Shown: positions 1,594 through 18,212 of the stretch, piece after piece
Position numbering within the stretch: the first letter of the stretch is position 1
Layout of the letters: each line of letters starts with the position of its first letter
Assembly (NCBI GenBank): GCA_946486375.1
Contig: CAMLTW010000004.1
Location: 1-64,000, forward strand
DNA: 64,000 nucleotides
Reading direction: 5' to 3'
Origin: an uncultured Rikenellaceae bacterium
GTDB taxonomy: Bacteria > Bacteroidota > Bacteroidia > Bacteroidales > Rikenellaceae
Notes under the pieces: model-generated
The model's database searches: none
What the model was told of the DNA's origin: nothing
The model's input: only the letters and a program-made list of their open reading frames with translations
Made by a program: the position numbers and the translations under genes

Positions 1594-3282
1594 TCATCGT
1601 CGCATTCCACCGCTATATTCGGCCTCCTGCTGTTCCTCCCTGTATTCTTCCAGGTCGTTCAGTTGCTCATTCACGCCCTGGAGATTGGCATCCAGTGTCA
1701 TGTTGTGGTCATAAGGGTAATGATGCTTCACGGTCATGCCCGCGTTGGTCATCGTCCCCACATCCAGCGAGTCACTGTCCCTGTTGTAATTGACATGCAG
1801 CACGTCGCCGTTCGGCATTTCGAAGACCGGCATCTTGTGCCGCGTCATTTCCGCAAACTGTTCTGCAGCCATCTCCCTCGCCAATGCCTTCACATCCTCG
1901 CTGGCCCTGTCAACTCCATATCTTCGGATATGGTCTCGAACTTCCTGTTCGGTGTATTTCAGCATCACGTCATAAGTTCCTCCTACACTACCGTTATACA
2001 CGACAGCGAAATGCTGGTCTTCAATCAGCAGGTCATCGCCACGGTTCTGCAAAGGAGAGGCATAGGTGTACTGTTCATCCATTCCGTTCCCGTCGTAATA
2101 CTCTTTCGCAAGAGTGAGCAGCCCGTTGTAGTCCCCTTTGTCTTTCAGTGCGTCAAGTCGGTTGGTATCGTCCGCCATTTGCAGATAGGCTACAGAAGCA
2201 TAATATACCTTTTCCTTCGGGGTTTCCGTCCGTTCCTGATTTTCGGTCTTTTCCCTTTCTATATCCCTGGCTATCTGGTCTATTTTCTGCGTGATCATGG
2301 ATGATGCCTTCTTCACGTCCATAAGTACGGTCTTAATGTACTGGGGTGACTCCTTCAGGTTATCCAGCCACGATTTCAGATACGGACAACTGTCCTCTTT
2401 TATATGTTTGGCCATTCCGTAGCGTTGGGAGATCAATGCACCGCACAATTCGGCCACAAGTTCTTCATCGCTATACTCCTTTGAACCGAAAGAGGTCGGT
2501 TGGAAACGGTTTAGCACACCTTCCGCACCAGTTGAATGTCCCATCTCATGGAACAGTGTTCCGTAAAATGCTTCCCCGTCCTTGAACTGCACCTTCTCCG
2601 GTACGGTGATTTCATTCTTGCTAATCGAGTAAAAGGCATCATCCTGATGTTTCACGTTGATGGGACATATCCATAGATTGTCGCGTATCATCCTATCCAC
2701 CGGTTCGAAACTGAACATTTCACCTTCATGGACGAATGGACGGCCGTTTTCCTTTTCCAGCTTCTCCCACAGTTCAGGACGAGCCTCTTTCAGATTCGTC
2801 TGGGCGACGTTGAACACGCGGAATACCTGCATCTTGGGATACACGTTATACTCTTTCTTTTCGTCCTCGGACAAGTTTTTGTAATCGTCATACTTGATCT
2901 TCTCCTTGGTCTCCTTGTGGATGCAGGTAAATGTGGTCAGCATGACGGGAAACGATTTCTCGCCTTTCAGTACCGATACCCTCGGCAGTTCCTCGCCGTT
3001 CTTGCCCGGTTTGTTCAGTCTCTGCACGCAATCAAATGTGCAGAACCTCGGAATAGTGTATCCTTCCTTTTCGCAGTGCAGCATGAGCATAAGCGCATTC
3101 ATACCGTTGTATTCGCGTCCGGACAGATTGCGTGGCCACTGAAGGCTGCCCTCGGTGAACCAGGGCTTCTTCCAGTCCTTGCTGATAGTCTCCAGCTTTT
3201 CAATCATCATTTCCGCAAAGAGGTCGAGAGCCTTGTCTTCGCTGTTCGGCCCGTCTGTATTTTGTCTCCTGTAGCCTGCCAT
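1594..3282 (-). CDS. ardC: ArdC-type antirestriction protein with zinc metallopeptidase domain
   Basis: The N-terminal 150 residues match the ArdC ssDNA-binding domain (WPRNLSGREYNGMNALML near 49-66). A zincin domain follows with the intact motif HEMGH (245-249) and a downstream EELVAELCGAL helix carrying the likely third zinc ligand. The C-terminal 200 residues are a variable extension ending in GGMRR. ArdC proteins of plasmids and ICEs bind ssDNA and protect incoming DNA from restriction endonucleases; some travel with the transferred strand. This is the last gene of the 17325-1594 operon, 5 nt after the SSB-like gene, a pairing that fits protection of single-stranded DNA. The tail resembles those of two other proteins of the operon and may be a sorting signal. 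Confidence 0.85.
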   Translation of the reverse strand: MAGYRRQNTDGPNSEDKALDLFAEMMIEKLETISKDWKKPWFTEGSLQWPRNLSGREYNGMNALMLMLHCEKEGYTIPRFCTFDCVQRLNKPGKNGEELPRVSVLKGEKSFPVMLTTFTCIHKETKEKIKYDDYKNLSEDEKKEYNVYPKMQVFRVFNVAQTNLKEARPELWEKLEKENGRPFVHEGEMFSFEPVDRMIRDNLWICPINVKHQDDAFYSISKNEITVPEKVQFKDGEAFYGTLFHEMGHSTGAEGVLNRFQPTSFGSKEYSDEELVAELCGALISQRYGMAKHIKEDSCPYLKSWLDNLKESPQYIKTVLMDVKKASSMITQKIDQIARDIEREKTENQERTETPKEKVYYASVAYLQMADDTNRLDALKDKGDYNGLLTLAKEYYDGNGMDEQYTYASPLQNRGDDLLIEDQHFAVVYNGSVGGTYDVMLKYTEQEVRDHIRRYGVDRASEDVKALAREMAAEQFAEMTRHKMPVFEMPNGDVLHVNYNRDSDSLDVGTMTNAGMTVKHHYPYDHNMTLDANLQGVNEQLNDLEEYREEQQEAEYSGGMRR

Positions 3283-3978: not shown

Positions 3979-4170
3979 CTAATCGGGCGCACGGATCATT
4001 GCCCAGACAAGCCATCCGGCAACGAGCAGCTGCACTCCCACGATAAGGAATGTTGCCGTCAAGCCAAACAGCTTGTAGCAGGACAGGACATACAAAGCCA
4101 GGTAGGATAATCCTGCCAGATACTTGCATAGCTGTATCATCACGCATTTTATCATATCGCCATGCTTCAT
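3979..4170 (-). CDS. Small membrane protein, 63 aa
   Basis: Two hydrophobic segments (about 17-35 and 38-56) make this a probable two-pass inner-membrane peptide. Its ATG overlaps the stop codon of the upstream hydrolase gene as ATGA, which argues for translational coupling and for this frame over an overlapping alternative. A small membrane protein coupled to a peptidoglycan hydrolase is reminiscent of export or holin-like helpers, but no family is recognised and this role is a guess. Confidence 0.55.
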   Translation of the reverse strand: MKHGDMIKCVMIQLCKYLAGLSYLALYVLSCYKLFGLTATFLIVGVQLLVAGWLVWAMIRAPD

Positions 4171-5717
4171 CTTTTCAGATTTTCCGTTTGTCCTCGCTGC
4201 TCGGACATGCCCTGTTCGAAATTCTGTGAAGCCATTTCCGAAAGGATGGCAGTATTCAGCAATCCCGTCACGCGCATCCGCTTGGCTTCATCCGTAAGGG
4301 TACTGTTGTTCAGCACGGCCGACAGCCGGCTCAATTCTGCGGAACTCAACTCGCGCGATATATGCTGTTCGCCGTTATCCGCCTGAAGGACGGCTTTCCC
4401 GTTCTCTTTCATGGTCAGACTACAGCTTTTCATGTCAGGCAGCAGTGGTTTCAAGTCGATCTTTCCGCTATCCATGGCCCCCGAAACGGCGGCTTTCTGC
4501 TCTTCCTCGTTCTTGCTGTCAATCTGAACGGCCAGCACCATCAGTGAGGTAAAGGCCGTCATGGCCATCTCCATGACAGGGTCATTGCATCCGGACATGC
4601 CGACGCCACTGTCCTCCGAGGACAGCAGCTTTTTCATCCAGTCTTCGGTAGAAAGAGGTTTCTCGATTTTGGGTTCTTCTGTACTACGGTATTTCGCGAG
4701 CAGGTCATTGCCGTTGTACAGCACCTGCTGCTTGATATTGCCTTTCTGCGCAATCTCGGCCAGATATGCAGCCGGGTCGATGTCACGGCGCGTCCCGTCC
4801 GAATGGATGTTCACCACCCCGAAATGCAGGTGCTCTCCCGTGGTCCGTGTCCCCGTGTTGCCCGAGGTTCCAAGGCGTTGTCCTGCCTTGACACTGTCTC
4901 CCGCCTTGACTGCGATATCGCCAAGGTGCATATAGGTACACTGCACCTTGCTTCCATCCGGGCGGCTGTATTCGACGGTTACACTCTTGCCTCCGGCAGA
5001 GTTGGCATTGCCGTTTACCGAAACGACCTTTCCGCCGTTTTCCGTGGCCAGCACCGCATCGCCTTTGCATCGTATGTCAAGCCCCTTGTGCATCTGCTGC
5101 TTTTCTTTGTCCATCGGGTCCTGACGCATTCCGAAAGCAGAAGTGACAAAGAGGAATTCCTTGCGTTCCACCGGAAATGAATAGGCTTCTGCCTTTTCTT
5201 TCTCCTGGAGAGGATTGCTTTCCAGACCGAACTGCTTGCCCTGCGCGGCCATTTCCTGCATGACCTGATGGTCGTATTTGTCCAGGCCGTTCTGCTCGAT
5301 GATCTTCTGCAGAGTCCCGGCATAGTTGCCCCCGGTCGCGTAACCGGCTTTGGCTATACCTTCCGTCCATCCCTTGTAGTCATCGGGACGGAGATTGAAA
5401 CATTCCGCGTAGCGGCTGTTCTCCTTAAGGAACCTCGAATGGTGTTCATAGGAGTCTCCTACGTTATCATAGCTGCAGAATTTCTCGTTCGGCTTGTCAT
5501 CCGAATACAGGCTGTACCGGCCGCCTTCCGCAATCCATGACTGTGTGGCCTTGATGCCGAAATGATTGTTTTCCTTGCGGGCCAGTTCACTCTGTCCGTT
5601 GGAACTCTCAAGGATCCCTTGTGCAAGTGTTACCGAAGCGGGGATGCCATACCGGCGCATCTGCTCCATGGCGTACTCTGCATACTTGTCTGCATATTCT
5701 TTATTTTTTCCTGCCAT
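4167..5717 (-). CDS. Bifunctional peptidoglycan hydrolase: glucosaminidase plus M23 endopeptidase
   Basis: Residues 8-150 form a FlgJ/LytF-like N-acetylglucosaminidase domain with the catalytic-type glutamate in QGILESSNGQS (E37). Residues 185-330 form an M23/LytM domain with both zinc motifs intact: H210-x3-D214 and H296-L-H298. The last 170 residues are a charged helical region of unknown role. No signal peptide is visible, so export may be through the secretion machine or by another route. Such enzymes open the cell wall for assembly of the conjugation channel. The preceding gene ends 5 nt upstream, and its last codons (ATGAGGAGG) also read as a Shine-Dalgarno sequence for this start, which is rare in this phylum. 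Confidence 0.88.
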   Translation of the reverse strand: MAGKNKEYADKYAEYAMEQMRRYGIPASVTLAQGILESSNGQSELARKENNHFGIKATQSWIAEGGRYSLYSDDKPNEKFCSYDNVGDSYEHHSRFLKENSRYAECFNLRPDDYKGWTEGIAKAGYATGGNYAGTLQKIIEQNGLDKYDHQVMQEMAAQGKQFGLESNPLQEKEKAEAYSFPVERKEFLFVTSAFGMRQDPMDKEKQQMHKGLDIRCKGDAVLATENGGKVVSVNGNANSAGGKSVTVEYSRPDGSKVQCTYMHLGDIAVKAGDSVKAGQRLGTSGNTGTRTTGEHLHFGVVNIHSDGTRRDIDPAAYLAEIAQKGNIKQQVLYNGNDLLAKYRSTEEPKIEKPLSTEDWMKKLLSSEDSGVGMSGCNDPVMEMAMTAFTSLMVLAVQIDSKNEEEQKAAVSGAMDSGKIDLKPLLPDMKSCSLTMKENGKAVLQADNGEQHISRELSSAELSRLSAVLNNSTLTDEAKRMRVTGLLNTAILSEMASQNFEQGMSEQRGQTENLKR

Positions 5718-5721
5718 ATCA

Positions 5722-8106
5722 TTACCTCCTCATGCTTGAACGCTGTTCATTTTCTTCCGGCTCAATCCTGCGTTCGGACTGTTTCTCCTGTGCCGTATCA
5801 AAGAGAGTCCGTGTCTGGCCGTTTCCGGCTGTCCTTTCTGTTATGCCCGTTGTTCTGTTCCGGGCATCCGCGAGTCCTTCTGCATCCCGTATCACCACTC
5901 TTGCACCGCTTCTCGCAAGTTTCTGAAGGAAAGTATCGAGCTGGCTGACTGGGAATGTCACGGAAGCCGTAAAGCCTTTTTTCATGTCAGCCTCGTGCTT
6001 CTCCATTTTCAAGGCAAGCGTTTCCGTTACCTTGACGGCATCCTCGTTATAAGCCGTATAGTTGTCACCGGTTCTTACAAACTGGATAGCGTCCGGGTGT
6101 TTGGCCTTTATCTTGTCCCAAGCCTCTCTCTGCGGACTGACGGATTCAACGGTACGCTCTTCTCCATTCTGTCGGCTGACAGCTTCTCCCTGCCGTATCT
6201 CGGTTTCCTTCTCCTGCTTTTCCCCGGCGTGTTCCTCCTGCGACTGTCCCTTTTGCAGTATATCGGCAAACAGCGAGGCAGCCAGGTGCCGTTTGTAGCT
6301 GTCACGGTCTTCCGCCACCCACATGCGCTGCCATTGTTGCGGTGATACACTGCGCGGCTGCAGTTTCTGCCCGTCAATCGTTACGGCACACAGTACACCG
6401 TCCTGCTTGGTTTTGAATACGGACACACGCTGTATCCGGTTCAGGTCCACGTCCTGTGTCCCGCTGTTGAACAGATCGACTTTCAGGTCGGGCTTGATTT
6501 CAGCAAGCGCGTAATATTTATGAGCCAGTTCCATGCGGACCTTGTCTATATTATCCATGGACTGCTTGAGTGTGGAAAAGAAGCGGTTTATGTCTTCCTT
6601 ATCGGGGTATATGCTATAACCTCTCTGATGCTCCGGCTTTATATAGAGAGCCCATCGGTTCTTGTCGTCCTGAATCATCTGGATCTTGTCAAATCCTACT
6701 TCGTTGGCCCGTTTTACTGCAGGGCTCACGTTCAGGGTCGAAAGCACTTCCAGGGCCCAGTTGTTCAACCGTGCCAGAGAGACCTGTTTCTCGGCAAAAT
6801 ACTTGTCATCAGGTCTGTAACCCAAGGCTCCGTCCGGATTGAAGAAACGCACAGTCTCGATGCCTTCCCGACGTAAAGCACGTCCGATACGGGCTTTGTT
6901 CATGCCGGGAATCTCGTTGTCCACCTCCGGTGATGCCCCGGCGGGAAGGATCACATCAGCCGACTTTGATACGGGATCTATGACAAGGACAATGGTTTTC
7001 TTGTCCTTGTCCGGACGTTTCCGTAACTCATCGGCCACGAAATAATGCTTGGGCAGCTGATCCTGCATGTCAGATGTCTGTTTCCTGTTCCGCAAGGTGG
7101 CATATTCGATTTTCTCTCCACGTTCCGCTTTACGGATAACTTCGAGAGCATTGTTCACGTCACTCTCGAGGGCATCTATCATATTCGGGTTCTCTTTGAG
7201 TTCCCGGTCCCAATATTCCACCAAACTGAGACTTTCGTCGGACAAGCGGGCTGGCAGTCCCAGCTCCAGCATCTTGATTCCCGATGCTATTTCCACGACC
7301 AGCCGTTCCTGTTTGACGGCATCGTCAGAAGGCGGCATACCGTTTTTCATCACCATTCCCTCGCGGGCAAGCCGCTGCTGATGTCCGGTGGCACTTACTA
7401 TCTGGCGCAGGGTTTCCTGCACATAATCGTTGTAATGGTCAAAGTTCTTTTGGCGGGGCATATAGACGGCATCTTTGTCCGTTTCATAATGGGGCATTCC
7501 GCTGCCATCGTAACGGACCGGCACAAGGTTGTCACGCATTTTCAGCAAAAAATCATTGAAGCGGATATGCATACGCCGTGTGTCTGCCTCCGAATATCCT
7601 CGTTCCATGGCATTCCCATCCTGTTGCAGAACGGCCCTGTAAGCCTCTTCGTCCACATGGGGAAATGTCGTCTGGTCTATATTGAACAGAGTGCGTATCT
7701 CTCTGTTATGTACTCCCTTATATTGTTTCTTCTGCTCATCGTCCAATGTGAGGTAGGTTCCCCGGTTGATGAACTCTTCAGGATTGTTCCTGTGGACATA
7801 TTTGTTCCAGTTATAGTACAGGAACGGCACACCCTGTTCATGCTCACGTACCGACGTGCCGCGGGCCTTGGCATCACTGAACAAGGTGAACAGGTTCGTA
7901 TTGCATCCGTTCCGATCGGAATGCAATGCCATGAACAGTGCATTGAACGGGCTGGCCGACACGCCGTGCGGGTACAGCCTCGGATACCTCTTTCCAGAAG
8001 CGTTGAGCCAGTAACCATTGGCCTTCGAAGCCTCTCCCAAAGCAGTGGAAAGCAGACTGATTTGCCTTTCCTCTGCATTTTTCTCTATTTTGGATTTTTC
8101 TTTCAT
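5722..8106 (-). CDS. ArdC-like polyvalent protein with degenerate peptidase site, 794 aa
   Basis: The N-terminal half matches the ArdC architecture (LYPHGVSASPFNALFMAL near 45-62). Where active ArdC has HExxH, this protein has IVSATGHQQRLARE, so the catalytic Glu and first His are missing, while the following helix (RLVVEIASGIKML) is conserved. The central part is unknown. A module near 565-615 (VTIDGQ ... DRDSYKRHLAASLFADIL) also occurs in the 14805-16304 protein. The C-terminus ends SSMRR. It is probably a structural or DNA-binding paralogue of ArdC that accompanies single-stranded DNA rather than a protease. The start is preceded by an AT-rich spacer after the 8132 gene. Confidence 0.7.
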   Translation of the reverse strand: MKEKSKIEKNAEERQISLLSTALGEASKANGYWLNASGKRYPRLYPHGVSASPFNALFMALHSDRNGCNTNLFTLFSDAKARGTSVREHEQGVPFLYYNWNKYVHRNNPEEFINRGTYLTLDDEQKKQYKGVHNREIRTLFNIDQTTFPHVDEEAYRAVLQQDGNAMERGYSEADTRRMHIRFNDFLLKMRDNLVPVRYDGSGMPHYETDKDAVYMPRQKNFDHYNDYVQETLRQIVSATGHQQRLAREGMVMKNGMPPSDDAVKQERLVVEIASGIKMLELGLPARLSDESLSLVEYWDRELKENPNMIDALESDVNNALEVIRKAERGEKIEYATLRNRKQTSDMQDQLPKHYFVADELRKRPDKDKKTIVLVIDPVSKSADVILPAGASPEVDNEIPGMNKARIGRALRREGIETVRFFNPDGALGYRPDDKYFAEKQVSLARLNNWALEVLSTLNVSPAVKRANEVGFDKIQMIQDDKNRWALYIKPEHQRGYSIYPDKEDINRFFSTLKQSMDNIDKVRMELAHKYYALAEIKPDLKVDLFNSGTQDVDLNRIQRVSVFKTKQDGVLCAVTIDGQKLQPRSVSPQQWQRMWVAEDRDSYKRHLAASLFADILQKGQSQEEHAGEKQEKETEIRQGEAVSRQNGEERTVESVSPQREAWDKIKAKHPDAIQFVRTGDNYTAYNEDAVKVTETLALKMEKHEADMKKGFTASVTFPVSQLDTFLQKLARSGARVVIRDAEGLADARNRTTGITERTAGNGQTRTLFDTAQEKQSERRIEPEENEQRSSMRR

Positions 8107-8131: not shown

Positions 8132-9928
8132 CTACTGGATACCTCGTGTACGCACGATAGTCTCCTGTTGTCCGTTGTCGTAATTGTCCGAGGCCCTTTG
8201 ACGGAGCTGTTCGCTTCTGGCGAGTACGGCGTTTGCCAGCGTGTTGAGCGGTAAGGCTCCGGCCCGGTAAGCGTCAGTCACGGTCTGCGATAATTGGATA
8301 GTACAGGGTACACGGTCAATTGTCGCGACAAGCATGTTGCCTTGAAGTACGGGATTCGTGATGCGGGGATTGAGCGGTTCGTCAGGATAATGGCGGTATT
8401 GGGCTGCGCCTCTATTGGCCGTGTTCATTTCGCCTTCTGACCGTTCACGCAGCACTTCATGCCCGGCCTTGTTCAGCAGGTTCGCCCCGCCGAGACCGAT
8501 AAGGAGCATCTTCAGCAGCGGATTCCGCACAAACATACCGGCCACTATGCTGGCTATAGGCAGCAGGTTGTCCTTGATGTTCAGGGACTGTGTCTTGCCT
8601 GTAAATACTCCCAGTAGAATATCCGGCAGCATCGCCATCACATAGCCGAGATTGCCGGCAATGTCTCCCATGCCGCTCAGTCCAAGGGTGCCGAGCAGAT
8701 CTTCCCATCCGCCCGTGTTGCCGTTGGATGCCGGCGTTTCAGACAGGTCATTCACGGGATGTACCCCTGTTTCCTGCATGACCTCCGGCTCTTTTTCCGG
8801 TTGTACCGTTTCCTGATGTACCTGTTCCGGCTCTTCCGCATCCGTTTGTTTCTTTTCTTCCAGACTTTTCAGGTAGACTTCTTCCTGCCCCGGTGCGACG
8901 ACCAGCGGCACATCCTTGTAGCGTTCCGGCCGTTCCTGTTTCAGCTTGTCCTGCAAACCTTTCAGGAACGGGAACGGCTGCTGCTTCTTCATCCAGTCCG
9001 TAAAGTTGAAATTGCAGACCGGTATCTGTTTCTTCAGCTGCTCATTGGCGGTCGCCGTGAAACTGTCCTTGTCTGCGGTCATGGTGGCTGCTTCACGCCG
9101 GAAATCTTCAAACACATTGTGTTCGCTGCCGAATACACCCTGGCTGATACATTGTTCGACTGAAATCGACTTGGGGTCTTCCGGCTCCAAATGTGCCATG
9201 GTGGCGGAGACGGCAGCATCCACACCGATGAATCTGGCGAATGCCGCCCATGAGCCGGCACCGCCCAGCATGACGGTATCCGCCGAGGCACCCAACAGCC
9301 ATCCCGCACCCTGCTCGACCTTGCTCGGCCGGTAAGCGGCCTCACCACGCTTCTCGATCTCCTCGGCAAGCGGGGAACGGCTCAACATCTGCGGCAGGCC
9401 GAACAGGCTTGATTCCGCGGCCTTGCGGATGATATAATCAGCCGAAGACTTGGGCATACGGTCTTTCACCAGTTTGTCTATCATCTGCTGTTCCAGACGA
9501 TAGTCCATGTAGGCATAGGCGAGATCGCCGCCAAGCTGTTCCGACAGTTCGTCGTACCGTTCGCGGCCGATTTCCTTCACGACTGCATCACGCCATTGCC
9601 CGGCCATATACGCAAGGTCGTGCTGTATGTCTTCCGAAGCGGCGATTTTCTCCTTGCACATCTCTACATAATCTTCCGTTGTCTTGGAGTTCCATTCGCC
9701 GGTAACTTTGAGCAGCTGGTACGGGTCGTTCAAAGGTTGGGCTGAAGAAGCCATCATGCTGAGAACCCCGCCAAGGGAGGTGGAATATTCCTTCATTTCC
9801 TCACCTTGTTTCCGGGCAAGATAATCTCTTGTCTCATCCATGACGGAAGCAAGGTGGTAACGGAAATAGTCATCCGAAAGACGTTCCAGTTCTGCGAATC
9901 GTCTGCTTTGTTTTATAGTTCCGTCCAT
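8132..9928 (-). CDS. Large hypothetical protein with C-terminal membrane segments, 598 aa
   Basis: I do not recognise the family. The first 300 residues are helical and mostly soluble with a Gly/Ala-rich hydrophobic patch (GAGWLLGASADTVMLGGAG, near 207-225). An acidic Glu/Pro/Gln-rich linker follows (about 350-420). Two or three hydrophobic segments lie at about 435-500 (YVMAMLPDILLGVFTG; PLLKMLLIGLGGANLL). A soluble tail has VLQGNMLVATIDRVPC. Its place between the hydrolases of the operon suggests a membrane-associated scaffold or DNA-handling protein. It is also one of the few proteins large enough to hide an unrecognised relaxase, but no HUH-type motif is seen. Confidence 0.6.
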   Translation of the reverse strand: MDGTIKQSRRFAELERLSDDYFRYHLASVMDETRDYLARKQGEEMKEYSTSLGGVLSMMASSAQPLNDPYQLLKVTGEWNSKTTEDYVEMCKEKIAASEDIQHDLAYMAGQWRDAVVKEIGRERYDELSEQLGGDLAYAYMDYRLEQQMIDKLVKDRMPKSSADYIIRKAAESSLFGLPQMLSRSPLAEEIEKRGEAAYRPSKVEQGAGWLLGASADTVMLGGAGSWAAFARFIGVDAAVSATMAHLEPEDPKSISVEQCISQGVFGSEHNVFEDFRREAATMTADKDSFTATANEQLKKQIPVCNFNFTDWMKKQQPFPFLKGLQDKLKQERPERYKDVPLVVAPGQEEVYLKSLEEKKQTDAEEPEQVHQETVQPEKEPEVMQETGVHPVNDLSETPASNGNTGGWEDLLGTLGLSGMGDIAGNLGYVMAMLPDILLGVFTGKTQSLNIKDNLLPIASIVAGMFVRNPLLKMLLIGLGGANLLNKAGHEVLRERSEGEMNTANRGAAQYRHYPDEPLNPRITNPVLQGNMLVATIDRVPCTIQLSQTVTDAYRAGALPLNTLANAVLARSEQLRQRASDNYDNGQQETIVRTRGIQ

Positions 9929-9935
9929 AAGTATC

Positions 9936-10262
9936 CTATATCATATTTATCTGTTTCAACAGTTGTTCTTTTGTCTGTTCAATCGCATTGTGGTACACTT
10001 CCATCTGTTTGGGGAAGAACTCCTCCAGCCATGCGTCTTTCTCGATGTTGTCATGGATGAAGCGTATCGCCTGTTCACGCTCTATCTCCACGGAGGCTTC
10101 ACCTTCCTCCCGGTTGTTGAACCATGCCTTTGTCCACCAGCGGACACCAGCCCGGTCCGGATATACGGACACGATACGCGGTATGTCGAAGCTCTGGATG
10201 TCGATGTCGAGTTCAGCCAGCGGATCAATGATGCCGCTGTAGCTTACGGCTTCGTCATGGAG
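9936..10262 (-). CDS. C-terminal extension of the M23-like protein, reached by -1 frameshift (or separated by mutation)
   Basis: This frame reads on from the slippery run without any ATG. The only internal start candidate is a GTG at 10172, in the middle of continuous protein-like sequence (HDEAVSYSGIIDPLAELDI precedes it). It ends QLLKQINMI 7 nt before the next gene. A -1 shift at A AAA AAC would fuse it to residue 271 of the upstream protein, giving about 379 aa. The content is acidic and helical with an aromatic cluster (RWWTKAWF). Either programmed frameshifting makes two products, or one A was lost from a 10-A tract and the gene is broken or mis-sequenced here. Confidence 0.6.
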   Translation of the reverse strand, partial: LHDEAVSYSGIIDPLAELDIDIQSFDIPRIVSVYPDRAGVRWWTKAWFNNREEGEASVEIEREQAIRFIHDNIEKDAWLEEFFPKQMEVYHNAIEQTKEQLLKQINMI

Positions 10263-11074
10263 TTTTTTTTTATGTCTCCGCTCATGGTGGAGAGGTACAC
10301 GTTGTGACGCAGGGCCAGGTAATGCAGGAAATCAGCGATGAGCAGGTTCTGTACCTTGCTGACCAGCGGGATGGATTTATGTCCCAGTCCGAGAGGATTG
10401 GCCATGCTCGGCATGTTCTCGTAGAAATATTCTCTCATCGCCCCCATGGTGAAGATGTGGCGCAGAGACTGCTCCGTGTGCTCGGGCAACACGTAGGCTC
10501 CGCGTTGCAGATCCTCCATGTAGTACGGCAGGAAACGCAGCATCAGTTCCTCGATTTCCCGTTTGTCCTTGTCGTAATCGGTCTTCACGGTCATTTCCAG
10601 ATCCGGGAATGCCGCCGTTTCATGTCCTCCCGCCTGACGAAGCGCACGGATGTTGCCGTAAAGCATGGTCAGGAACTCCAGCGGATTCAGTTCCTCTCCC
10701 TTGAACCGGGCTTCGACGTGCAGCCTGTCACCGCTCAAGGCCACAGTCTGACCGGCTTTCACGCGTTGCCCGAACTGCGCAAAGACATTTGACAGGTGTC
10801 CGTATGTCACCTCATATTCCCCGTACCGGATAGTCTGGCATATCCCGTGTACCGGATCATTGCCGACCCCTGACACGATTCCGCTCGCGACGGCAGACAG
10901 CCTGTAATATCGGGCGTTGAAGTCAATGCCATGGTGGAAAAACGGCTTGCCCGTTCCCGGGTCGGTCTGTTCGCCGTAACCGAGAGTCATTTCCACCTCC
11001 TTGCCCTGGGGCTCCTCGAAAGGCATACAGTAGCCGCTCTCGGAGTGAAGTATCATTTCTTCTGTATATTTCAT
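10244..11074 (-). CDS. M23-like peptidase with incomplete zinc site (zero-frame product, 276 aa)
   Basis: Residues 10-150 form an LytM/M23 fold: HHGIDF carries the first zinc motif, YGHLS is the usual core strand, and DRLHVEARF replaces the standard HxH, so the first His of that pair is Arg. Catalysis is therefore doubtful; many such proteins act as activators or scaffolds. Residues 165-271 are helical. The frame ends five codons after an A AAA AAC heptamer (10268-10262); the -1 frame stays open for 108 more residues of protein-like sequence. The gene follows the 11099 gene closely in the operon. No signal peptide is seen. Confidence 0.75.
   Translation of the reverse strand: MKYTEEMILHSESGYCMPFEEPQGKEVEMTLGYGEQTDPGTGKPFFHHGIDFNARYYRLSAVASGIVSGVGNDPVHGICQTIRYGEYEVTYGHLSNVFAQFGQRVKAGQTVALSGDRLHVEARFKGEELNPLEFLTMLYGNIRALRQAGGHETAAFPDLEMTVKTDYDKDKREIEELMLRFLPYYMEDLQRGAYVLPEHTEQSLRHIFTMGAMREYFYENMPSMANPLGLGHKSIPLVSKVQNLLIADFLHYLALRHNVYLSTMSGDIKKNSMTKP
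10262..10268 (-). promoter_or_regulatory. Candidate -1 ribosomal frameshift heptamer A AAA AAC
   Basis: On the minus strand the zero frame reads ATA AAA AAA AAC TCC, which places the classical slippery heptamer exactly in phase. A GGAG lies 7 nt upstream, like the stimulatory site of dnaX. Downstream, CAGCGG (10239-10234) pairs with CCGCTG (10223-10218), extended by AGC/GCT. The spacer to this hairpin is 17-22 nt, longer than usual. The zero-frame stop is 15 nt after the heptamer. Confidence 0.5.
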
Positions 11075-11098: not shown

Positions 11099-11764
11099 TT
11101 ATCTTCTCATTCCTCCGTTATAAGTCTGTTCCTCGCTCTGGCCGGGGAAAGCCTGTATCCTTGCCACGCTCTCCGTGTTCGTGTCACGGAAGACGCCGGC
11201 ATTGTTGCCGATGAGCATCATGCCGAGGAAAGCCCCGGCGATCTTGCCCAACCACCCGAAACGTCCGAAAATGAGAAAAGCGGCGGCTATAAGGCCCGCG
11301 ATGCTCAATCCAGATACGTTGCCATGGCCGAGGTTACGGACAAAATTGCCGAGCATGTTCATGCCTCCGCCACTCGAAGCCTGCCGTAGGAAATTGGATA
11401 CCCCGTCAAGTTTGGAATCTATTCCCGCCACAGCTCCGCTTAACGTGCCGACGGCTTCTCCGGCCTTGTCCGTCAGTCCCCGTACATCCTCGGCGGTATC
11501 AGCCAAGGCATCCGTGGCCGGTTCTCCGATGACCGCATCGCTCACGATACGCACCACGCTCTTGTCTGTCGTCAGCTTTTCCCAGCCGACATAACCGATC
11601 GCACCTCCGACGGCGGCAGTCTTGACGGCTTGTCCGGCGCCCCGTAACGTCTGCGACGGATGAAGTGCCGCTTCACCCACGTTTTTCCCGGTTGCCAAAA
11701 CAGCCTTGCCGGTACCTTTGGCCGCCTTGCCGCCATACTTCAATATTGTACTCCATACTCCCAT
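11099..11764 (-). CDS. Gly/Ala-rich membrane protein, 221 aa
   Basis: The N-terminal 70 residues are basic and Gly/Ala-rich (KYGGKAAKGTGKAVLATGKN). A central helical region follows, then a hydrophobic pair of segments at about 150-190 (LSIAGLIAAAFLIFGRFGWLGKIAGAFLGMML). The last residues are NGGMRR, close to the SGGMRR end of the ArdC protein although the codons differ (GGA GGA ATG AGA AGA versus GGT GGA ATG CGA CGA). The family is not recognised. It sits between a VirB5-like secreted protein and the M23-like protein, so a role at the inner membrane in the secretion apparatus is plausible. Confidence 0.6.
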   Translation of the reverse strand: MGVWSTILKYGGKAAKGTGKAVLATGKNVGEAALHPSQTLRGAGQAVKTAAVGGAIGYVGWEKLTTDKSVVRIVSDAVIGEPATDALADTAEDVRGLTDKAGEAVGTLSGAVAGIDSKLDGVSNFLRQASSGGGMNMLGNFVRNLGHGNVSGLSIAGLIAAAFLIFGRFGWLGKIAGAFLGMMLIGNNAGVFRDTNTESVARIQAFPGQSEEQTYNGGMRR

Positions 11765-17543: not shown

Positions 17544-18212
17544 ATGAGAAAAATTTTATGGATGATTATATCAGGCATTTCGCTCAGTCTGATACCGGCA
17601 ATGGCACAATTCAATACAGTTTCCTCCGCTTCCGATTACTATCGGGAGGAGAGTGTGCAGGCGGCCACCAAGGACAAGGAAACAGCTTCAGACAATACGG
17701 GTTCCGGGAAAGGTGTATCGGAAAACACCGGCAAATCCGGGGCTCGCGGCGATGTGCAAAGGCAGATGGTGGTTGAGCGTTACCTGAGTGTCAGTTATCC
17801 GTTACCGAGAATCAAGGTAACTTCTCCATACGGTTACAGGAAAGACCCCTTTACCGGCAAGCGTAAATTTCATGGGGGAATCGATTTGCAGGCACGTGGC
17901 GACAAGGTGCTGGCGATGATGGCGGGAACTGTCGTAAAGGTCGGGCAGGACAAGACTTCCGGCAAGTATGTAACGCTGCAGCACGGGAACTGCATGATCA
18001 GCTATTGCCACCTTTCAAAGATTCTCGTAGCCAGGGGAACAGCCGTCCGGCCGCGTGATGCGGTCGGTATTACCGGCTCTACAGGACGCAGCACGGGAGA
18101 ACACCTGCATATCACCTGCCGCCTCAATGGCAAGAGTGTCGATCCCGCAATCCTTTTTGAACATGTCAGGAGAGTACAGCAGGAATGTGTTTCGGCACTG
18201 GCCGAACTATGA
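17544..18212 (+). CDS. Secreted M23 metallopeptidase, 222 aa
   Basis: A signal peptide (about 1-22, ending IPAMAQ) is followed by a linker and a complete LytM/M23 domain: HGGIDL (zinc ligands near 109 and 113), SYCHLS, and GEHLHITCRLNG (HxH near 186). It should cut peptide crosslinks in the periplasm, opening the wall for the conjugation channel. It is transcribed away from the long minus-strand operon and shares its intergenic region and palindromic operator. Its end overlaps the convergent phosphoribosyltransferase gene by 6 nt. The promoter lies unusually close to the start codon. Confidence 0.88.
   Translation: MRKILWMIISGISLSLIPAMAQFNTVSSASDYYREESVQAATKDKETASDNTGSGKGVSENTGKSGARGDVQRQMVVERYLSVSYPLPRIKVTSPYGYRKDPFTGKRKFHGGIDLQARGDKVLAMMAGTVVKVGQDKTSGKYVTLQHGNCMISYCHLSKILVARGTAVRPRDAVGITGSTGRSTGEHLHITCRLNGKSVDPAILFEHVRRVQQECVSALAEL

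Follow-up and report, generated by a model that had tools for sequence, protein, structure and literature searches.

A conserved poly-A run at the frame break of an M23-like gene in Bacteroidales conjugative elements, and its probable role in recoding

An M23-like gene spread over two reading frames

The window, by which we mean the whole 64,000-nucleotide stretch that was analysed, belongs to contig CAMLTW010000004.1 of an uncultured Rikenellaceae bacterium. Within a long minus-strand operon, extending from about 19.0 to 1.6 kb, lies an M23-like gene whose coding sequence continues in a second frame (Table 1). The operon also encodes ArdC-like anti-restriction proteins, a glucosaminidase-M23 protein and a toprim protein, and a conjugation-like gene set was recognized by eye elsewhere in the window. 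In Prevotella sp. E2-28, the M23 gene is found a few genes past traM and traN. This gene context suggests a possible role in conjugative transfer.

Table 1. Window coordinates of the M23-like gene, its junction and its operon neighbours.
Feature	Position	Strand	Remarks
Upstream operon gene, 221 aa, hydrophobic segments, no family assigned	11099..11764	-	Similar ORF precedes the gene in locus L092
Zero-frame ORF (short form), 276 aa	10244..11074	-	M23-like domain and conserved helical C-terminal part; relatives at 64-85% identity aligned
M23-like domain, residues 46-131	10682..10939	-	HxGxD present; first HxH His and preceding loop missing; probably non-catalytic
A9 slippery tract, T before, C after	10263..10271	- (T9 on +)	T-A9-C in 43/43 relatives; A8-A10 in 74/74 loci
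A AAA AAC heptamer, zero-frame register	10262..10268	-	Out of register in the phase-0 clade of relatives
Zero-frame stop TAA, ending the short form	10244..10246	-	Five codons past the heptamer; stop 16 nt past the tract in 56/73 loci
-1-frame extension, 108 residues (C-terminal domain of the predicted 379-aa long form)	9939..10262	-	omega 0.055/0.053
Long-form stop codon TAG	9936..9938	-	
Downstream operon gene, 598 aa, hydrophobic segments, no family assigned	8132..9928	-	Similar ORF follows in locus L089

The zero frame starts with an ATG at 11074 and its end reads GAC ATA AAA AAA AAC TCC ATG ACG AAG CCG TAA. As described in the first-pass annotation, this TAA (10246-10244) closes the frame five codons past the heptamer, and the -1 frame encodes 108 protein-like residues (10262 to 9939) with no start of its own. 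The -1 frame begins at CTC (10262), the codon of its last residue ends at 9939, and its earliest ATG, GTG or TTG is a GTG at residue 31 (10172), past conserved residues. The A9 tract (10263-10271) occupies 10271-10262 together with its C, and the window has no second run of nine A or T. T-A9-C occurs once, versus 0.03 occurrences expected from shuffles; A9 on either strand is by itself unremarkable, with one occurrence and 1.16 expected.

The HxGxD and HxH residues are metal-binding and catalytic motifs of the M23 family. The zero frame matched PF01551 (Peptidase_M23) with an E-value of 5.7e-11 and 42.9 bits, versus a gathering score of 28.7. The first-pass description as hydrolase-like has to be qualified. 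In an alignment with the window's two regular M23 proteins, the first HxH His was absent from all rows of the family, together with the loop before it. H47, the first metal-binding His, is replaced by Asn in one clade (L036/L039/L040), and L092 lacks the second HxH His too. The missing His and loop and the Asn of this clade suggest a non-catalytic domain, which is probably inactive as an enzyme. The element encodes three M23-type proteins, of which those at 17544-18212 and 4167-5717 keep the catalytic motifs and that at 10244-11074 has lost the first HxH His. The short form appears to have no evident signal peptide.

No relative of the 108-residue extension was found in Pfam, NCBIfam, PHROGs or PDB sequences. 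AlphaFold2 was run on the 276-aa part and the extension apart rather than on the 379-aa fusion. The prediction for the 276-aa part was poor (pLDDT 47). That for the extension (pLDDT 73) has three strands followed by three helices (b-b-b-a-a-a), and yielded no usable fold match (best Foldseek E-value 0.55, best VIA-align Z 3.9), which does not in itself show a new fold.

A C-terminal motif is common to three mutually unrelated, minus-strand products of the operon: GGMRR at 1594-3282, SSMRR at 5722-8106 and GGMRR at 11099-11764. The ORF in L092 that resembles the last of these also ends in SGGMRR. The shared MRR ending is a possible common tail signal.

Relatives of the gene and conservation of the frame break

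Genome contigs scanned with the 276-aa frame yielded a first set of 43 true relatives at 64-100% identity. Their hosts included Bacteroides, Phocaeicola, Parabacteroides, Prevotella-like genera, Barnesiella, Alistipes and others. All 43 contained T-AAAAAAAAA-C exactly and in the same register, with the zero-frame stop a few codons on. The -1 frame continued for 107-108 residues in all of them except L035. This locus (L035/L044, JAFLRT010000058.1) is on a short contig of an Alistipes MAG, where the A9 site is present but the extension departs from the others after some nine residues and terminates close to the end of the contig; the assembly is likely chimeric or broken.

Further relatives came from plasmid, phage-labelled and viral-contig records, and whole-genome searches with a profile of the extension brought the total to 74 distinct loci in Bacteroidales genomes and mobile elements. 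Identity falls to 40% between pairs of these loci, and to about 46% when they are compared with the window gene. Phylum-wide and order-wide even samples contained almost no relatives. This suggests that the gene is patchily distributed, as expected of a mobile element. Among the loci are five GenBank records labelled 'Bacteriophage sp.' (UNVERIFIED; L059-L063, MT835483, MT835624, MT836557, MT835677 and MT836722) and IMG/VR contigs (L050-L055) with this conjugative-element gene. These are probably integrative elements mislabelled as phage. Two further loci (L018 and L025) represent Bacteroidales element DNA in MAGs named Acetatifactor and Eisenbergiella (Firmicutes), reflecting either misbinning or a surprising host. 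Diverged copies of the gene were also found within single genomes (four in G1189, four in G1153 and three in G1348), which suggests that each of these genomes harbours several related elements at once.

An A8-A10 run was present in all 74 loci, and in 73 of them the frames remain broken at it. The run is A9 in 59 loci, A10 in 13 and A8 in two, both of which are deletion variants. The shift needed to join the frames is -1 in 68 loci (92%) and +1 in five, and one locus is continuous. The run starts in phase 2 in 52 loci (xTA AAA AAA AAC/G), in phase 1 in 15 (GAA or CAA, then AAA AAA AAG/C) and in phase 0 in seven (GAT, GGT or AGT, then AAA AAA AAA, then C or G). In the phase-0 clade (L092, L130, L131, L133 and L134), A_AAA_AAC/G falls out of register, yet the run is still nine long and the shift still -1. 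A zero-frame A_AAA_AAA heptamer lies inside the run in every phase.

Each of the five +1 loci has one A fewer than its nearest relatives' state; for example, L094 (A9) stands beside L093 and L095 (A10), and L097 (A8) beside L134 (A9). The only locus with A10 and a single continuous frame, L129, stands beside L131 (A9, -1). Ten A with one continuous frame is the arrangement that the first-pass annotation had named as refuting its reading, and it turned up in just one of 74 loci, in a fragmented draft genome. The continuous gene there identifies the fused protein as the natural long form. The five +1 loci and L129 differ from their neighbours by single-A indels. All six are terminal branches of the tree, most of them come from draft assemblies, and they may be indel errors.

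A base lost from an A10 run in a single genome, whether as a homopolymer read error or in a decaying pseudogene, would look like the arrangement in the window, and the first-pass annotation had left room for such an error. The same break was found in 43 of 43 loci and then in 73 of 74, in dozens of independent assemblies from many sequencing projects and across wide divergence, with strong purifying selection on both sides of the junction. For practical purposes this conservation refutes an error or a pseudogene, to which we assign only a negligible chance.

Changes of run length in the DNA could also switch the long form on and off, and the six of 74 loci that are one A off their nearest relatives' state are what phase variation might leave behind. 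Such switching predicts a mixture of states, yet the continuous 'on' state was found in only one of 74 loci, and near-identical elements in different genera keep A9. We consider phase variation highly improbable.

Selection on the junction and the extension

Selection was analysed in 34 non-redundant loci. Synonymous identity was 0.94-1.0 at the four tract codons (-3 to 0), versus about 0.5 elsewhere, and 0.93 at extension codon +6, which overlies the zero-frame stop. No synonymous excess was observed past codon +7 in these loci. Synonymous constraint peaks over the tract and over the codon preserving the stop, which suggests that both forms are selected.

In all phase-1 and phase-2 loci, A is the last base of the codon preceding the Lys codons (ATA, GTA, TTA, CTA, CAA or GAA), and it has stayed so while the encoded residue changed about 14 times on the tree among Ile, Val, Leu, Gln and Glu. 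The share of A-ending codons in the same genes is 0.33 for Ile, 0.23 for Val, 0.09 for Leu, 0.28 for Gln and 0.53 for Glu.

The extension is under strong purifying selection (omega about 0.05). Pairwise dN/dS was 0.055 for its codons 8-27 and 0.053 for codons 28-100, versus 0.14 towards the end of the zero frame. In 22 of the 34 loci there is no ATG, GTG or TTG ahead of extension residue 18, and in 14 there is none ahead of residue 31. The first starts are scattered between residues 10 and 87. Since most of these relatives have no start before residue 18, the conserved residues at the head of the extension cannot mark where an independently started protein begins.

These data bear on whether the two frames are separate genes, the downstream one being translated by reinitiation near the zero-frame stop. 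RefSeq presents them in this way, as an M23 metallopeptidase and a hypothetical protein, and in L056 the annotated pair overlaps by four bases, as is typical of translationally coupled genes. The even constraint on codons 8-27 and 28-100 is at odds with starts that are missing or scattered, and an independent start of the second frame was rejected on these grounds. Two genes would also leave the conserved A run unexplained, and L129 is a natural fusion. Separate genes are therefore very unlikely. Considering that the extension is under strong purifying selection and that its conserved part lies upstream of usable starts in most relatives, we suggest that the fused product is real.

Comparative sequence analysis established the conserved break, the run, the fused frame and the early stop. 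The slippery sequence and the break are kept in diverged homologues, and the second frame is selected up to the junction. We conclude that programmed recoding of some kind almost certainly yields a short and a long form. The proposal of the first-pass annotation that both arise from one recoding site agrees with the break kept in 73 of 74 loci and with the selection on its two sides.

Mode of recoding and comparison with known systems

The first-pass annotation likened the site to dnaX-type signals, for which a Shine-Dalgarno-like stimulator and a downstream stem-loop are expected; the relatives support neither. A GGAG does lie 7 nt before the window's heptamer, as had been noted. It is not conserved as a stimulator, being present in nine of 74 loci. 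Any of GGAG, AGGA or GAGG was found in 26 of 74 (35%), versus 14% of control windows, so that these tetramers are weakly enriched and absent from two thirds of the loci. An upstream Shine-Dalgarno-like element was therefore rejected as a conserved part of the signal. The putative downstream hairpin did not withstand scrutiny either. It folded no better than shuffles in the window (z -1.17) or in five relatives (z -1.28 to +0.58), and RNAalifold on a 24-sequence alignment gave -3.9 kcal/mol with double changes in three of 13 pairs, nothing beyond chance. With no consistent structure in the six loci and the alignment, and no synonymous constraint past codon +7, a conserved hairpin was likewise rejected.

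Transcriptional slippage calls for about nine or more A, and the run is A9 or A10 in 72 of 74 loci and A8 in two. Runs of nine A slip efficiently in bacterial RNA polymerases (PMC1088944, PMC5009743), and in tested cassettes efficiency tracked run length, at 63% for 11 A, 40% for nine and 10% for seven (PMC3711429). Mixed shift direction within one family is a criterion for transcriptional realignment (PMC3711429); by the same rule, the 92% of loci that share the -1 direction would read as ribosomal. The run kept in every phase, the absence of stimulators and the single-A variants in both directions, if genuine, together favour transcriptional slippage, and RNA-polymerase slippage is, on this comparative evidence, probably the main mechanism.

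Programmed -1 ribosomal frameshifting, by tandem tRNA slippage on A_AAA_AAC or the overlapping A_AAA_AAA, would make both proteins from one 9-A mRNA. The -1 direction in 68 of 74 loci, the in-register A AAA AAC/AAG of the 63 loci (of 74) whose run starts in phase 1 or 2 and which need -1, and A_AAA_AAA in all phases agree with it, and A_AAA_AAC is proven in one bacterial IS, where a stimulator is not established (PMC4066793). Slippage at A_AAA_AAA, which overlaps A_AAA_AAC/G in most loci, could also act and would explain part of the run's conservation. Three observations count against a ribosomal mode: a run of nine or more is kept where the A_AAA_AAC/G heptamer is out of register, a third-position A is kept two codons before the heptamer's P-site codon, and neither a Shine-Dalgarno-like element (GGAG in 9/74) nor a structure is conserved. 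In E. coli, moreover, A_AAA_AAC is much less shifty than A_AAA_AAG (PMC5009743). Given the dominant -1 direction and the slippery heptamers, ribosomes may slip as well, or even be the sole cause of the shift. As the principal mode we regard it as rather unlikely, and we judge transcriptional slippage on the whole run a better account than the dnaX-type slippage on A_AAA_AAC first proposed.

Under transcriptional slippage, RNA polymerase would slip on the A9 run and produce some mRNAs with one extra A. The templated 9-A mRNA would encode the short form of 276 aa, ending five codons beyond the run, and the 10-A mRNA would encode the M23-like part fused to the 108-residue C-terminal domain (379 aa). 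The ratio of the two forms may be set by the run. The protein probably works at the cell envelope during conjugative transfer, where its M23-like domain would serve as a scaffold and not as an enzyme.

The closest precedent is tssM1 of Citrobacter rodentium, which, like tssM of the Yersinia pseudotuberculosis T6SS-3, has a poly-A run shortly before a stop, joining a shorter frame to a C-terminal domain (PMC4256274). The lack of stimulators near the site is shared as well, and so, on the reading preferred here, would be transcriptional slippage, a need for both forms and their ratio, and a place in an envelope-spanning transfer machine. In C. rodentium, both forms and their ratio are needed, and the run is A11 (PMC4256274), whereas A9-A10 is kept throughout the family described here and the proteins are unrelated. 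Slippage in tssM was proven by experiment, while the present site is known from sequence comparison. Thermus thermophilus dnaX also has a nine-A run and two products that share an N-terminus, made by transcriptional slippage (PMC5009743, PMC1088944, PMC3711429). Its long product is in the zero frame, while here the long product needs an extra A. Escherichia coli dnaX (A_AAA_AAG, ribosomal -1) resembles the site in its A-rich heptamer, -1 direction and short and long forms; it differs in that the main clade here has AAC, that no Shine-Dalgarno-like element or hairpin is conserved and that the shifted product is the longer one. Insertion sequence transposases with poly-A slippage share the mobile DNA, the A run, the broken frame for the long product and, apparently, both directions within a family (PMC1088944, PMC3711429), whereas the present gene belongs to a conjugative-element operon and is not a transposase.

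In the literature searched, we found no paper on slippage by Bacteroidales or Bacteroidota RNA polymerase, and none linking Bacteroides or Bacteroidetes with slippage or programmed frameshifting in conjugative elements. Poly-A recoding with two products is already known; new within that literature are this family, its breadth and its setting in Bacteroidales conjugative elements. We give even odds to the proposition that a whole family of Bacteroidales conjugative elements depends on a fixed poly-A run, where slippage by RNA polymerase would set how much of each form of a transfer-machine protein is made, the host polymerase thereby tuning the apparatus. If true, no earlier case of a programmed transcriptional frameshift would have been described for conjugation in Bacteroidota. 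The protein belongs to a very common gut mobile element and is split into two genes by databases, and its poly-A recoding site is kept across many genera, spread by transfer. Should the slippage reading hold, a ratio-controlled component of Bacteroidales conjugation would become directly testable, and the site could serve as a natural test of whether the RNA polymerase of Bacteroidota slips.
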